Below are positions 17,343 to 58,464 of a stretch of 64,000 bases of DNA, in pieces. The notes below the pieces were generated by a model. That model worked only from the letters and a program-made list of their open reading frames with translations. It did not search any database and was not told the DNA's origin. Both the position numbers and the translations under genes were made by a program. The first letter of the stretch is position 1. The number at the start of each line of letters is the position of its first letter. This DNA is from Gimesia alba (GTDB taxonomy: Bacteria; Planctomycetota; Planctomycetia; Planctomycetales; Planctomycetaceae), in the NCBI RefSeq assembly GCF_007744675.1, contig NZ_CP036269.1, forward strand, positions 3,699,546 to 3,763,545, in the 5' to 3' direction.

Positions 17343-18206
17343 TCAGCGTTTCAATTGTGACAGCACCGGGTGATTGCTGCGCAGATGCAGTTCGAGTTCT
17401 TTGCGGGCCAGCTTCCAGTCTTCATTCAGCAGCGCGGTCAGGATGCGCTGATGCTGCTGGATCTCCTGGATTGCGGCTTCTCGATCATTCGATTCCCAGA
17501 GGAACAGCAGGTCAAAATAACGGCCGTGCCGATCGAAGAAGCTGATGATGTAATAATTGTCCGATTGTTTGATCAGATACTCGTGCAGGCTGTTGTCGAT
17601 TTGCAGCGGTTCTTCAGCGGTTTCCGGCACCCGATTGCCGGCCAGTATCTTTTCCAGGACCTGTTTGTCGAGACTCCCCTTCGCCAGATCGAGCGCTTTC
17701 AGTTCGAGCACCACGCGGACTTCGATAAAGGCGTCGAGGTCGTGCTGATTAAAGGACCGGAGTTTCCAGCCACGTCGCGGCACATGTTCCAGCACACCAT
17801 CGCCGGCCAGCCGATTGAAAATGTTCCGCAGACTGGTGCGGCTGATGCCGTATTTTTTCGCGGAAGCCGCTTCCCGCAGAAACAGCGATTCCCCGTTCAG
17901 GCTCATCGCGAGCAGGTCGTCTGTGATCCGTTTGAAATGATCTTCGGGTGGTGCGGGTTGATGAGACTGAGCCGCGGTCTGAGCGTCGCCAATCTTGTCC
18001 TGATTAACGTACAACCGTCGGTTCTTTTCGCGGTAGAGATACCCCTCTTCGATCAGCTCATTGATGGCATGATAAATGGGGGTGACACTCACCTGGTAAT
18101 GATCCGAGAGCGCAGCCAGCGTCAACGATTCCGGCGGCAACTCGGCGCGTGACAGCCGGGATATCAGATCGGCTTTGATGTAATTCGTGAGTGTCAAAAT
18201 CTGCAT
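17343..18206 (-). CDS. GntR-family regulator with two winged-helix segments and an FCD-like domain
   Basis: 287 residues. Residues 1-70 form one GntR-like winged helix (LTLAALSDHYQVSVTPIYHAINELIEEGYL). A second helix-turn-helix of the same type follows at about 90-165 (LFLREAASAKKYGISRTSLRNIFNRLAGDGVLEHVPRRG is split here by position; key segment GISRTSLRNIFNRL). The C-terminal 120 residues are all-helical, FCD-like (FIEVRVVLELKALDLA, SLHEYLIKQSDNYYI, HQRILTALLNEDWKLA), where FadR-type proteins bind an effector. Tandem DNA-binding domains before one FCD domain are unusual. The start ATG at 18206 has GAGGGA upstream, and this site overlaps one arm of an inverted repeat (18215-18238), suggesting autoregulation. 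The regulated genes are not evident. Confidence 0.85.
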   Translation of the reverse strand: MQILTLTNYIKADLISRLSRAELPPESLTLAALSDHYQVSVTPIYHAINELIEEGYLYREKNRRLYVNQDKIGDAQTAAQSHQPAPPEDHFKRITDDLLAMSLNGESLFLREAASAKKYGISRTSLRNIFNRLAGDGVLEHVPRRGWKLRSFNQHDLDAFIEVRVVLELKALDLAKGSLDKQVLEKILAGNRVPETAEEPLQIDNSLHEYLIKQSDNYYIISFFDRHGRYFDLLFLWESNDREAAIQEIQQHQRILTALLNEDWKLARKELELHLRSNHPVLSQLKR

Positions 18207-18214
18207 CGGCGTCC

Positions 18215-18238
18215 CTCAGAGTGCGTTAGGTCTCTGAG
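18215..18238 (-). promoter_or_regulatory. inverted repeat overlapping the GntR ribosome-binding site
   Basis: CTCAGAG (18215-18221) and CTCTGAG (18232-18238) are exact reverse complements with a 10-base spacer. The promoter-proximal arm merges with the GAGGGA ribosome-binding site of the GntR gene. It may be an autoregulatory operator or a leader hairpin that masks translation. Confidence 0.5.
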
Positions 18239-18396
18239 AATATATATGATATTGGCGACAATGTAAATAATATGATCTGAGTATTGGAATATGATTGAAT
18301 AAAAAGCATGCATTTTGTACTCTGAAATAACTACGTGTTCATAAGGGCATTTGTGGTTTGAGGTGCATTCCATAGCAGAGAAAGTACGAGCTTACA

Positions 18397-19914
18397 ATGT
18401 TCATAGAAGAAATATTAGACGGCATAGAGCATGAGAGTATAAATAGAAATATTGCTTTTGAAACTTTTATGCTGAATCTATTAGAGCATCACTTAGAACG
18501 GCAAAATAAACCTTTTTTAAGAGGCTCTTATGTTCACGATGGGTATGATGCATTAGCACCAGATGGATTTGATAAACTGAGAGAGACAACATATATCGAG
18601 TTCAAGTATGATCTGAAAAATATTCCATCTTCATATTGGAAGAGATATTTTAGCCGACTTTGTTACTCATTATCTCCTAGTGACAAGGAACGATCCAACC
18701 TACTTATTATTTCAGCGAAGCAGGCGACCCCAAGAATAAAAGATCGAATATGTGCAGCCTATGAGTCATTTGAAGGTCGGCTCAATCTATTTTTGTGGGG
18801 ACCGACCCAAATAGAAAAAATTGCCAAAAAGTATAAGACAAAAATAAATGAGATTGCTGATAATCTTTTTTCTTTAAGATTAGCATCTGCGGTAAGCGAA
18901 ACAAAAGATGATTGGAAATCCGATCGAGAGGTTCTAATTGAAGACTTAAGAAATTGTTATTTGAAAGGCCAATTTTCACTATTCTTAGGTGCAGGCGTTT
19001 CTAGTAGCGCTGGAATGCCTGATTGGAATACCTTATTAAACTCACTTTTTGTAACCTATTTAACCCAAGAGTTTAGAAGTGATATAAAGATTTCTGTAGA
19101 TGATATAAAACAGCTAGTGCTGCGGCTAAAAGAAGTAGATGAACCTTCTACTTTGATGGCAGCAAGATATTTACGCCGAGGTTTGTCTCAAAAGAAAGAA
19201 GGAGCTAAAGAATTTGTAAGTGAGATTACTAGAAATCTCTATGAATTGAGAGATGAAAGTTATGATATCGATTCTAGGTTACTTATGTCACTTGCATCAA
19301 TGTGTATTCCGCGTAGAACTGGAGCAAAAGTTTCGTGTGTAGTGACATACAACTTTGATGATTTATTTGAGAAACAACTAGATAGTAAGTCAATCAATTA
19401 TAGATGTATTTATACTGATAGCGAATCAGATAACCCGGATGAATTACCTGTTTATCATGTTCATGGTTTTTTACCTGAATATAATGGTGCTTATGATGAT
19501 TTAGAAAAATCGACTCTTGTCTTTGCAGAAGAAGGTTATCATCAAATTTATACTGATTCGTATCATTGGTCTAACTTGGTTCAATTAAATAGACTTCGTG
19601 AAAATACTTGCTTGATGGTTGGCCTATCGATGACTGACCCAAATTTACGTCGTTTATTAGATATCGCCGCTAAAAATAATGACCGAACTAAGCATTTTGT
19701 TTTCTTGAAGCGACTAAAAAAGGAAACATTCTGTTTTGAAAACAAAGATGGAAAAAAACATGAATTAATTAAGAATCAAGAGGGAGCTGAAAAATTTCTA
19801 AAAGGCCATCATGTTCTAAATGAAGAGCTAATGAAGGAACTTGGAGTCGCAGTAATTTGGTATGAAGAGTACGATGATATTCCTGAAATTCTTGAACGAA
19901 TAATTAAAATATGA
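18397..19914 (+). CDS. SIR2-domain protein with N-terminal PD-(D/E)xK-like region, candidate defence gene
   Basis: 505 residues. The N-terminal ~170 residues resemble a restriction-endonuclease-like fold: Asp51 in DGYDALAPDG and Glu68-x-Lys70 in YIEFKYD give a D...ExK arrangement. Residues about 190-420 are a SIR2 NAD-binding domain: SLFLGAGVSSSAG (GAG 198-200), VVTYNFDDLFE (Asn319, Asp321), YHVHGFLP (His356, the catalytic type) and LMVGLSMTDPNLRRLL. Such SIR2 proteins act as NADases in phage defence (for example ThsA and Dsr families), but this exact architecture is not one I can name. Base composition and codon use are clearly AT-rich against GC-rich neighbours, which indicates horizontal transfer. 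No partner gene of similar composition adjoins it. The nuclease-like assignment is less sure than the SIR2 one. Confidence 0.8.
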   Translation: MFIEEILDGIEHESINRNIAFETFMLNLLEHHLERQNKPFLRGSYVHDGYDALAPDGFDKLRETTYIEFKYDLKNIPSSYWKRYFSRLCYSLSPSDKERSNLLIISAKQATPRIKDRICAAYESFEGRLNLFLWGPTQIEKIAKKYKTKINEIADNLFSLRLASAVSETKDDWKSDREVLIEDLRNCYLKGQFSLFLGAGVSSSAGMPDWNTLLNSLFVTYLTQEFRSDIKISVDDIKQLVLRLKEVDEPSTLMAARYLRRGLSQKKEGAKEFVSEITRNLYELRDESYDIDSRLLMSLASMCIPRRTGAKVSCVVTYNFDDLFEKQLDSKSINYRCIYTDSESDNPDELPVYHVHGFLPEYNGAYDDLEKSTLVFAEEGYHQIYTDSYHWSNLVQLNRLRENTCLMVGLSMTDPNLRRLLDIAAKNNDRTKHFVFLKRLKKETFCFENKDGKKHELIKNQEGAEKFLKGHHVLNEELMKELGVAVIWYEEYDDIPEILERIIKI

Positions 19915-20007
19915 AGTAAGCACACTTCACAAGATCCAATTACTTTTTTGGTATCAATTTTTAGAACCTTTAAGTACATATCTATTGATTTGGAAAAAAG
20001 AACCCCC

Positions 20008-20340
20008 ATGAGCATGCCGGTCACGACCACATTTACAATTGAGGGCTACCAGATCAAAGAGTACAAGGGAGTGGTTCGCGGGATCATTGTGCGGTCGCCG
20101 ACGATCGCGCAGGGATTTTTGGGTGGCTTGAAAAATATTGTGGGAGGTCGGATTGGTGCCTACACCCAGATGTGCGAGCAGGCGCGGCAGCAGGCCTATG
20201 ATTTACTCCTGGAGCACGCCCGGGAACTGGGGGCGAATGCGATTGTGGGCCTGCGCTACGATGCCTCGGAAGTGGTCAGCAAAGGCTCAGCGACCGAAGT
20301 GCTCTGTTACGGGACCGCTGTTGTGATCGAGCCTGAGTGA
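20008..20340 (+). CDS. YbjQ/UPF0145 family protein
   Basis: 110 residues from the ATG at 20008; upstream in-frame extension to 19948 falls in AT-rich DNA following the SIR2 gene and is not conserved-looking. The family pattern is clear: VTTTFTIEGYQIKEYKGVV, GIIVRSPTI, a long central helix (MCEQARQQAYDLLLEHARELGANAIVG) and LCYGTAVVIE. UPF0145/YbjQ proteins form compact pentamers of unknown function once called heavy-metal-binding. Cytoplasmic. Its stop overlaps the region of the next small gene (start 1 base later), so the two are coupled. Composition is like the host, in contrast to the AT-rich gene before it. Confidence 0.88.
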   Translation: MSMPVTTTFTIEGYQIKEYKGVVRGIIVRSPTIAQGFLGGLKNIVGGRIGAYTQMCEQARQQAYDLLLEHARELGANAIVGLRYDASEVVSKGSATEVLCYGTAVVIEPE

Positions 20341-20341
20341 T

Positions 20342-20629
20342 ATGTATAAACACCGGGATGCCAGCCAGCGGCTGACGATTGAGTTTTTTCAAATTGAAGC
20401 CGACTCGTATCAGAGGATTACACAAATCGTTGTGAATCAGTTTCAGCTGGCGCCTGTGGGGGAACTGGTGGTCGGCCCGGATGAACTGTTTCAGGAGTTC
20501 CGACTTCAGAGAAAAGTCGTTGGCTTGGAATGGGATATCTGGTCGGGCTACATCGTAGTCGCGAAAACGAAGTCCGCGGAAAAACTGGTGCGGAAAATCG
20601 CGTCATTTATCGAATTGCACCAATTATGA
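20342..20629 (+). CDS. small hypothetical protein
   Basis: 95 residues, not recognised. The ATG lies one base after the stop of the YbjQ gene, so translational coupling is likely and supports reality. The sequence has a mixed alpha/beta character: RLTIEFFQIEADSYQRITQIVVNQF, a central strand-rich part, LEWDIWSGYIVVAKTKSAEKLVRKIASFI. There are no cysteines, no signal peptide and no membrane segment. A cytoplasmic partner of the YbjQ protein is plausible but is inference from arrangement only. Confidence 0.6.
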   Translation: MYKHRDASQRLTIEFFQIEADSYQRITQIVVNQFQLAPVGELVVGPDELFQEFRLQRKVVGLEWDIWSGYIVVAKTKSAEKLVRKIASFIELHQL

Positions 20630-43933: not shown

Positions 43934-44005
43934 GGATCGGTAGCTGAGATGGTATAGCGGCGATCTGAAGAATCGCAGACGAGGATTCGAGCACCTCCCG
44001 ATCCA
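43934..44005 (+). tRNA. tRNA-Phe(GAA)-like, with an atypical T arm
   Basis: The 72-nt cloverleaf has acceptor GGATCGG/CCGATCC, discriminator A, D arm GCTG...TAGC with A14, G15, G18, G19 and A21, and an anticodon stem GCGAT/ATCGC with loop CTGAAGA (anticodon GAA). The T loop TTCGAGC is normal in T54, T55, C56 and A58, but the T stem GAGGA/ACCTC has an A-A mismatch at 53:61 where G-C is nearly universal. The variable loop has four bases (AGAC). It is first in an array with tRNA-Glu 23 bp later. Either a functional but odd tRNA-Phe or a decaying copy. 3' CCA is not encoded. Confidence 0.6.
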
Positions 44006-44028
44006 CTTACGAATGGAGAGACCATTTT

Positions 44029-44101
44029 GCCCCGTTGGTCTAATGGCAAGGATACCGGCCCCTCAAGCCGGTGATGCTGGGTTCAATTCCCGCACGGGGT
44101 A
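44029..44101 (+). tRNA. tRNA-Glu(CTC)
   Basis: The cloverleaf has acceptor GCCCCGT/ACGGGGT with a G-T wobble at the first pair, discriminator A, and anticodon stem CCGGC/GCCGG with loop CCCTCAA (anticodon CTC, reading GAG). The T arm is GGGTTCAATTCCC. CCA is not encoded. Confidence 0.95.
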
Positions 44102-44129
44102 TTTGACTTGTATTAAGTAAATTTGATAC

Positions 44130-44214
44130 GGAAGTCATCCGGCTGGATGAGGGCCCGGTCTTGAAAACCGGTGGTGCTGCATAGTGCTTGTGGGTTCGAG
44201 TCCCACGGCTTCCG
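44130..44214 (+). tRNA. tRNA-Ser(TGA)
   Basis: 85 nt with the long variable arm of class II tRNAs. Acceptor GGAAGTC/GGCTTCC, anticodon stem CCGGT/ACCGG with loop CTTGAAA (anticodon TGA), T arm TGGGTTCGAGTCCCA, discriminator G. CCA is not encoded. Confidence 0.95.
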
Positions 44215-44287
44215 CGTTGGATTCTGCAATCCGATTTTTCTGGAAATCATGCAGAAACCGGGTCGAATATGAGGAAAAATGGTTTGA

Positions 44288-44373
44288 GGAAGGTAGCCGG
44301 ATATGGCTCGCCGGACCGCACTGCTAATGCGTGTGCCCGTTTGGGCATGTGGGTTCGAATCCCATGCCTTCCG
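44288..44373 (+). tRNA. tRNA-Ser(GCT)
   Basis: 86 nt, class II. Acceptor GGAAGGT/GCCTTCC, anticodon loop CTGCTAA (anticodon GCT), long variable arm with GTGCCCGTTTGGGCA pairing, T arm GGGTTCGAATCCC, discriminator G. CCA is not encoded. Confidence 0.95.
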
Positions 44374-44394
44374 CTTTTGGTGAGAATTCGATAT

Positions 44395-44468
44395 GGTGTT
44401 CGTAGTGTAAAGGTTAGCACGTAACACTGTGACTGTTAAGGAGGTGGGTTCAATTCCCCTCGAACACC
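44395..44468 (+). tRNA. tRNA-His(GTG)
   Basis: Acceptor GTGTTCG/CGAACAC is extended by G-1 (44395) opposite discriminator C73 (44468), the hallmark of tRNA-His. Anticodon stem TAACA/TGTTA with loop CTGTGAC (anticodon GTG). T arm GGGTTCAATTCCC. A T run follows. Confidence 0.95.
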
Positions 44469-44500
44469 CTTGTTTTTAGAATTACAGGAATGGTGAAATC

Positions 44501-58391: not shown

Positions 58392-58464
<73 letters not shown>

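Follow-up and report, generated by a model that had tools for sequence, protein, structure and literature searches.

The 64,000-nucleotide stretch of the Gimesia alba genome analyzed here (hereafter, the window) contains an intact open reading frame (ORF) that starts with ATG and encodes a protein of 505 amino acids (positions 18397–19914, forward strand), in which a predicted restriction-endonuclease-like domain is fused to a SIR2 domain. The reading that we favor, with a probability of about 0.5, is that the protein acts against phages on its own: its nuclease-fold half would engage nucleic acid and license the hydrolysis of nicotinamide adenine dinucleotide (NAD+) by the SIR2 half. The two-domain architecture is well supported, a role in defense is likely, and the order of events is what we infer. 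Both halves are of a known kind. As a self-sufficient protein, the fusion of the two is unnamed in PADLOC, NCBIfam, Pfam and PHROGs, in line with an earlier note on this DNA (the original prediction) that could place the gene in no named system, and it is not described in the parts of the open-licence PubMed Central literature that were covered, including portions of PMC11559045, PMC11514479, PMC13092281, PMC10952713 and PMC9519451.

Architecture and conservation of the fusion protein

Residues 1–160 were modeled as a restriction-endonuclease-like fold with a predicted local distance difference test score (pLDDT) of 86. The best structural match of this region is the N-terminal domain of Avs4, followed by the small subunit of R.BspD6I, EcoT38I and FokI, and in the model, the core fold carries the Asp and the ExK motif of PD-(D/E)xK enzymes on core strands. 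The nuclease fold that the original prediction had proposed for the N-terminal part is thus supported by both structure prediction and structural search, at the level of a model. At the sequence level, the domain is named by no Pfam, NCBIfam, PADLOC or PHROG model, and a second Pfam scan gave chance-level matches only; the matches to LZ3wCH (0.004) and Gins15 (0.18) are both under their cut-offs and were rejected. Comparison of a profile of the domain with the sequences of solved structures found no relative (best E-value 0.09, unrelated), and a search with residues 1–172 retrieved only the query itself and P0006 among 574 candidates.

The C-terminal part matches the Pfam family SIR2_2 (PF13289) with 68.2 bits, against a cut-off of 24.5. 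The SIR2 alignment extends to residue 505, the last of the protein. Structurally, this domain is nearest to ThsA, followed by DSR2, KomC, Avs5, SPARSA and SIR2-HerA chains, all of which are regarded as phage-defense NADases. The fusion protein lacks both STAND and SLOG: Pfam shows no STAND or sensor-repeat match at E-values up to 10, and no domain other than SIR2.

Conservation was assessed in an alignment of 134 rows, comprising the best 120 of 1621 homologs (query included) and 14 translations of individual loci, some of which are possibly the same proteins. The residues D51, E68, K70, N319, D321 and H356 were found at the positions given in the original prediction, and the SIR2 site that it described as intact is nearly invariant in the family (Table 1). 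Glu22, which the prediction lacked, is conserved and completes a typical nuclease active site. Random quadruples drawn among the 36 Asp, Glu and Lys residues of residues 2–162 equaled the conservation of E22/D51/E68/K70 in 0.019% of 100,000 draws, a figure not corrected for relatedness of the sequences. Overall, the N-terminal domain is approximately twice as variable as the SIR2 domain (mean column entropy 1.87 versus 0.95 bits), as would fit a recognition module facing changing targets.

The nuclease site is degraded in some relatives. Across the 134 rows, position 70 is occupied by Lys in 121, Arg in 7, Met in 2, Val in 2 and Tyr in 1, with one gap; both rows with Val are short and probably misaligned. 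Glu68 is replaced by Asp in 8 of 133 rows and Asp51 by Asn or Gly in 2 of 131, and the homolog at L085 (loci are denoted by L and a number) has Asn at position 51 and Asp at position 68, as read by eye. The two Paraburkholderia members, L016 and L017, lack K70 and yet retain N319 and H356. The reverse situation is observed in Alcaligenes faecalis AU14 (L013:8001–9524), where Tyr replaces His356, the nuclease site is intact and a candidate defense gene, PDC-S06, lies nearby; judging from the substitution, this copy is possibly a natural inactive one.

Table 1. Features of the fusion gene and of the surrounding AT-rich block, in window coordinates.
Feature	Position	Strand	Basis
Nuclease-fold/SIR2 fusion gene, 505 aa	18397..19914 (stop codon included)	+	ORF, homologs
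Block with a single gene and flanking non-coding DNA, probably horizontally acquired, 1729 bp, 33.9% GC	18268..19996	.	Composition; breaks of congener homology
Restriction-endonuclease-like (PD-(D/E)xK) domain, residues 1–160	18397..18876	+	Predicted structure
Glu22 codon, proposed active-site acid	18460..18462	+	E22 in 128/129 rows
Asp51 codon, proposed catalytic	18547..18549	+	D51 in 129/131 rows
Glu68-x-Lys70, proposed catalytic ExK on a beta strand	18598..18606	+	E in 123/133, K in 121/133; strand 65–70
SIR2 domain, residues 172–505	18910..19911	+	Pfam, structural alignment
Gly198-Ala199-Gly200, proposed NAD-binding GAG motif	18988..18996	+	G198, G200 in 134/134; aligns with GAG of ThsA, KomC
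Asn319-Phe320-Asp321, proposed NADase active site	19351..19359	+	N319, D321 in 134/134 each
His356, proposed catalytic His of the NADase	19462..19464	+	133/134; one Tyr (L013)

Origin and distribution of the gene

The gene lies in a block that is sharply more AT-rich than its neighbors, as had been noted at the outset. The GC content of the block is 33.9%, compared with a mean of 50.8% (standard deviation 2.8, lowest 45.3%) in 40 non-overlapping 1518-bp segments of the window outside the block, and the GC content at the third codon position is 24.7% in the fusion gene versus 53.9–70.8% in 10 neighboring genes. The ORFs that flank the fusion gene encode 287 and up to 130 amino acids, and the surrounding DNA bears genes of kinds characteristic of Planctomycetota. 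The ends of the block (18200–18420 versus 19880–20060) share no word of 8 or more nucleotides, direct or inverted, and within 18150–20050, the matches to promoters (8 versus 6.6 in shuffled sequence, standard deviation 2.7) and terminators (1 versus 0.7) are within the scatter of the shuffles. Elsewhere in the window, five tRNA genes (Phe, Glu, Ser, Ser, His) are clustered at 43934–44469, and a tRNA-Lys gene is found at 58392.

The fusion protein is present in a single copy in its own genome, where it is also the sole match to SIR2_2. In a survey of the phylum, 4 of 392 genomes, including this one, gave matches at 1e-10, and the remaining three matches cover the SIR2 half alone, with 31–34% identity, so that the full-length protein is found in 1 of the 392. 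Of the 17 genomes of the genus (own genome included), 15 have the gene that precedes the block on its left side, and the two that lack this gene are 74–76% complete. The homology to congeners breaks at 18267–18281 in all ten loci compared (L058–L067) and restarts at 19997–20007 in four of them and further to the right in six; the AT-rich block is absent from all ten. The congener loci carry other DNA at this position, partly common to some of them, and none is a clean empty site. Between a GntR-like regulator (17343–18206; named by eye) and the small genes at ~20008–20629, the gene content differs from one species of the genus to another, which gives this interval the look of a variable site. 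The comparisons point to a block that was probably acquired horizontally, and because the congeners hold differing DNA there and none has the block, the fusion gene would have replaced or displaced other DNA in this interval. In a tree of 44 rows, the branch of the window protein is long (0.91) and adjoins rows from Bacteroidota and Paraburkholderia; the support of 89/88 is too weak for the donor to be named.

The 1621 homologous proteins (E-value of at most 0.001) come from Gamma-, Beta- and Alphaproteobacteria and Bacteroidota, in addition to the window genome, and are named only ‘SIR2 family protein’, ‘hypothetical protein’ or ‘Uncharacterized protein’ among the source names listed. The gene was detected in 3 of 5426 Escherichia coli genomes, with the DNA of a Klebsiella plasmid gene as the query, so that more diverged members would escape this count. 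A plasmid copy (L022) bears part of the gene set of the E. coli islands described below. Two matches were found in IMG/VR. One of them, L084:7941–9425, is on a P2-like contig that represents a phage or a prophage, with P2-type genes for a capsid scaffold and a major capsid protein at distances of ~4 and 5 kb, respectively. The gene is much poorer in GC than its surroundings in Aeromonas taiwanensis (35% versus 62%), Pseudomonas nitroreducens (40% versus 62%) and P. rhizoryzae (39% versus 61%); it is close to them in Acinetobacter tandoii, a GC-poor host (33% versus 30%), and in Paraburkholderia (52% versus 56%), so foreign composition is not universal in the family. The best reading of this distribution is that of a patchy family that spreads horizontally.

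Genomic neighborhoods

The neighborhood set consists of 229 ORFs around 20 loci, several of which are on short contigs, compared by sequence similarity alone. Five pairs of ORFs match between loci but none of these adjoin the fusion gene in both, i.e. no partner recurs, which makes it reasonable to regard the gene as an independent unit, as originally proposed. As the protein consists of two domains and has no partner that recurs, it is presumably one of these domains that meets the trigger.

The neighborhood survey that had been suggested along with the original prediction places some relatives in defense islands and mobile elements. A CBASS cyclase lies 0.75 kb from the homolog in L001, SIR2-HerA is near the homolog in L002 (the HerA there has 569 amino acids and is accompanied by its own SIR2), Gabija GajA and Shedu SduA are near the homolog in L009, and PDC-S06 accompanies the one in L013. 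The islands that surround two of the three E. coli copies are near-identical and contain AbiEii, a DEAD/DEAH helicase and genes for type I restriction-modification, one of the latter being frameshifted in the second island. Next to the homolog, one island encodes what is annotated as a ‘NACHT protein’; in the other, this gene is broken up into two hypothetical proteins. An AlpA-family regulator is annotated in one of the two islands. The PADLOC scan covered 160 of the 229 ORFs, those within 5 kb of the homologs at the 20 loci, at 1e-10, and the neighbors matched 141 and 47 families in two sets, many of these being redundant models of one system. Septu PtuA/PtuB, MADS mad2 and AriA are also among the matches; PtuA was not found within 5 kb of the homolog in nine genomes searched. 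When 20 neighbors were scanned one by one at 1e-20, 4 matched PADLOC and 16 did not. Among the Pfam families listed for a second neighbor set of 84, there are two phage integrases and two resolvases.

Several neighbors are of interest in their own right. In L085:352–3173 (IMGVR_UViG_3300006183_000096), the two genes directly upstream of the homolog resemble, by eye, a DUF4297-type nuclease and an SMC-like ATPase, and this pair is possibly Lamassu-like. Two large ORFs near homologs, L001:3627–7409 (1260 amino acids) and L012:9428–13285 (1285 amino acids), have no PADLOC match at 1e-20 and could be further defense genes or ordinary ones.

Proposed mechanism and alternatives

Under the proposed mechanism, the nuclease-fold half would recognize foreign nucleic acid and may also cut it; the binding, probably accompanied by oligomerization, would turn on the SIR2 half, which would hydrolyze NAD+ and halt the infected cell, i.e. 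cause abortive infection. The chief effector would then be the NADase, with cleavage an aid that has been lost in some lineages. The roles are assigned in this manner because the N-terminal domain is the more variable one and, by kinship, a nucleic-acid binder, whereas the SIR2 domain varies less and belongs with NADases; recognition by the former and its coupling to the latter are what we infer from this division. A more specific version, which we put forward tentatively, is that the nuclease-fold domain is itself what senses foreign nucleic acid and that it switches on, by allostery, the NADase to which it is fused, having decayed to a pure DNA sensor in some lineages. The absence of K70 from some relatives with an intact SIR2 domain implies that nuclease catalysis is not essential for every member, and because a degraded nuclease site can be combined with an intact SIR2 site, the NADase is probably the primary effector and cleavage secondary, which is a hint rather than proof.

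Several observations weigh against the favored reading. The model of the whole protein is of low confidence (mean pLDDT 70.9), with pLDDT below 50 at residues 200–218, 248–266, 273–286, 357–361 and 368–390, all within the SIR2 domain and touching active-site loops, and K70 is replaced in L016 (Tyr), L017 (Met) and L019 (Arg) and, by eye, in L084 (Ala). No known defense gene adjoins the window copy, judging from a reading of the neighboring ORFs. Only one full-length relative was found among 72,556 plasmid records and none in 50,697 phage records, where there was one partial SIR2 match. Beside the relatives, Pfam shows many ordinary genes, such as sulfatases, oxidoreductases, gyrase and transporters, among the families listed. 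Control regions also match PADLOC, with 16 families among 150 ORFs in 14 chosen regions of the same genomes (AbiTii in 3 ORFs, mad3 and mad2 in 2 each, and MkoA, MkoC, ShosA, SoFic, PsyrA, AriA and others in 1 each). Island carriage is therefore claimed for particular loci, where it is clear, and not as a measured enrichment.

The main rival explanation, which we consider unlikely, is that of parallel effectors: an infection signal other than DNA, such as a phage protein, would activate an oligomer that both cuts DNA and depletes NAD+, with the nuclease serving as an effector as in Avs4. This possibility is suggested by the nearest fold being the N-terminal domain of Avs4, a protein whose solved structure includes a bound phage portal (title of 8dgf), by the pairing of SIR2 with STAND in Avs5 (title of 9jap), and by the conservation of the catalytic quartet. 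However, the fusion protein, in which SIR2 reaches the last residue, has no STAND or repeat sensor with which to perceive a protein, and K70 is lost in some relatives that retain SIR2. Less probable again is that the nuclease-fold half is merely a DNA-binding or dimerizing scaffold, with SIR2 acting alone and no cleavage; the loss of K70 in L016, L017 and, by eye, L084 and the substitutions of E68 and D51 are compatible with such a scaffold, whereas the retention of K70 (121/133) and E68 (123/133) in an otherwise diverging domain is not readily explained by it. The presence of the gene on a P2-like contig, on a plasmid and in islands, together with the possibility that the N-terminal domain senses any foreign DNA, would also suit a role that is not chiefly anti-phage, namely that of a suicide gene directed at plasmids or serving genome surveillance, or that of a toxin of mobile elements; this appears improbable given that SIR2 proteins are presented as components of phage defense in the available portions of PMC11559045 and PMC10952713. 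Least probable is a metabolic or regulatory sirtuin-like enzyme with no role in defense, although the window copy does lie among ordinary-looking chromosomal genes.

SIR2 NADases are common immune effectors, and under the favored reading of a nucleic-acid-licensed NADase, this widespread family of small single-chain proteins, with a nuclease fold as the sole additional domain, is well suited for asking how the recognition of nucleic acid could trigger NAD+ destruction, with the members that combine an eroded nuclease site with an intact NADase site as natural comparisons. Because the family bears only generic names, many genomes would gain annotation.

Comparison with known defense systems

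In Thoeris, ThsA is an NADase in which SIR2 is followed by a C-terminal SLOG domain (PMC11204291, in the part available); the window protein lacks SLOG and has a nuclease fold at the N-terminus instead. For the TIR partner ThsB, the comparison extends to the 20 loci, where no neighbor recurs, and to the 25 PADLOC families listed for each set of their neighbors. Dsr1 was considered and rejected, the score against NCBIfam NF041818 being 20.2 bits versus a cut-off of 1400.

The likeness to Avs4, which we take to be a nuclease-STAND protein, consists in the N-terminal nuclease fold; the window protein has no STAND ATPase or sensor repeats but SIR2 in their place, and it is far shorter (505 amino acids versus 1534 residues in 8dgf_B). 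In Avs5, SIR2 is N-terminal (chain residues 17–293) and is followed by STAND, whereas in the window protein, SIR2 is C-terminal to the nuclease fold. The STAND NTPase and sensor repeats of Avs4 and Avs5 have no Pfam match in the window protein at E-values up to 10, and its two domains fill the 505 amino acids.

In Lamassu LmuA, nuclease and SIR2 are presumably alternative effectors, and the partner LmuB is presumably of the SMC type; in contrast, the window protein combines the nuclease fold and SIR2 in one chain, without a recurring partner. No partner of the size of LmuB lies beside the window gene and none recurs at the 20 loci; the upstream gene in L085, read by eye, is a possible ATPase. 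In KomBC, SIR2 is a separate protein, KomC (264 amino acids), solved in complex with KomB (structure titles), whereas the SIR2 of the window protein is fused. SIR2-HerA (Nezha) consists of two proteins, including the HerA ATPase, unlike the single protein described here; HerA is not encoded next to the window gene, where the flanking ORFs are too small, and no gene recurs at the 20 loci.

In the SIR2 NADase systems named in the available portions of the papers cited at the outset, sensing falls to a separate protein or to a large additional domain. If the sensor of the fusion protein indeed resides in the same chain, a single protein of 505 residues would accomplish what requires two proteins or a large sensor in SIR2-HerA, SPARSA and Avs.
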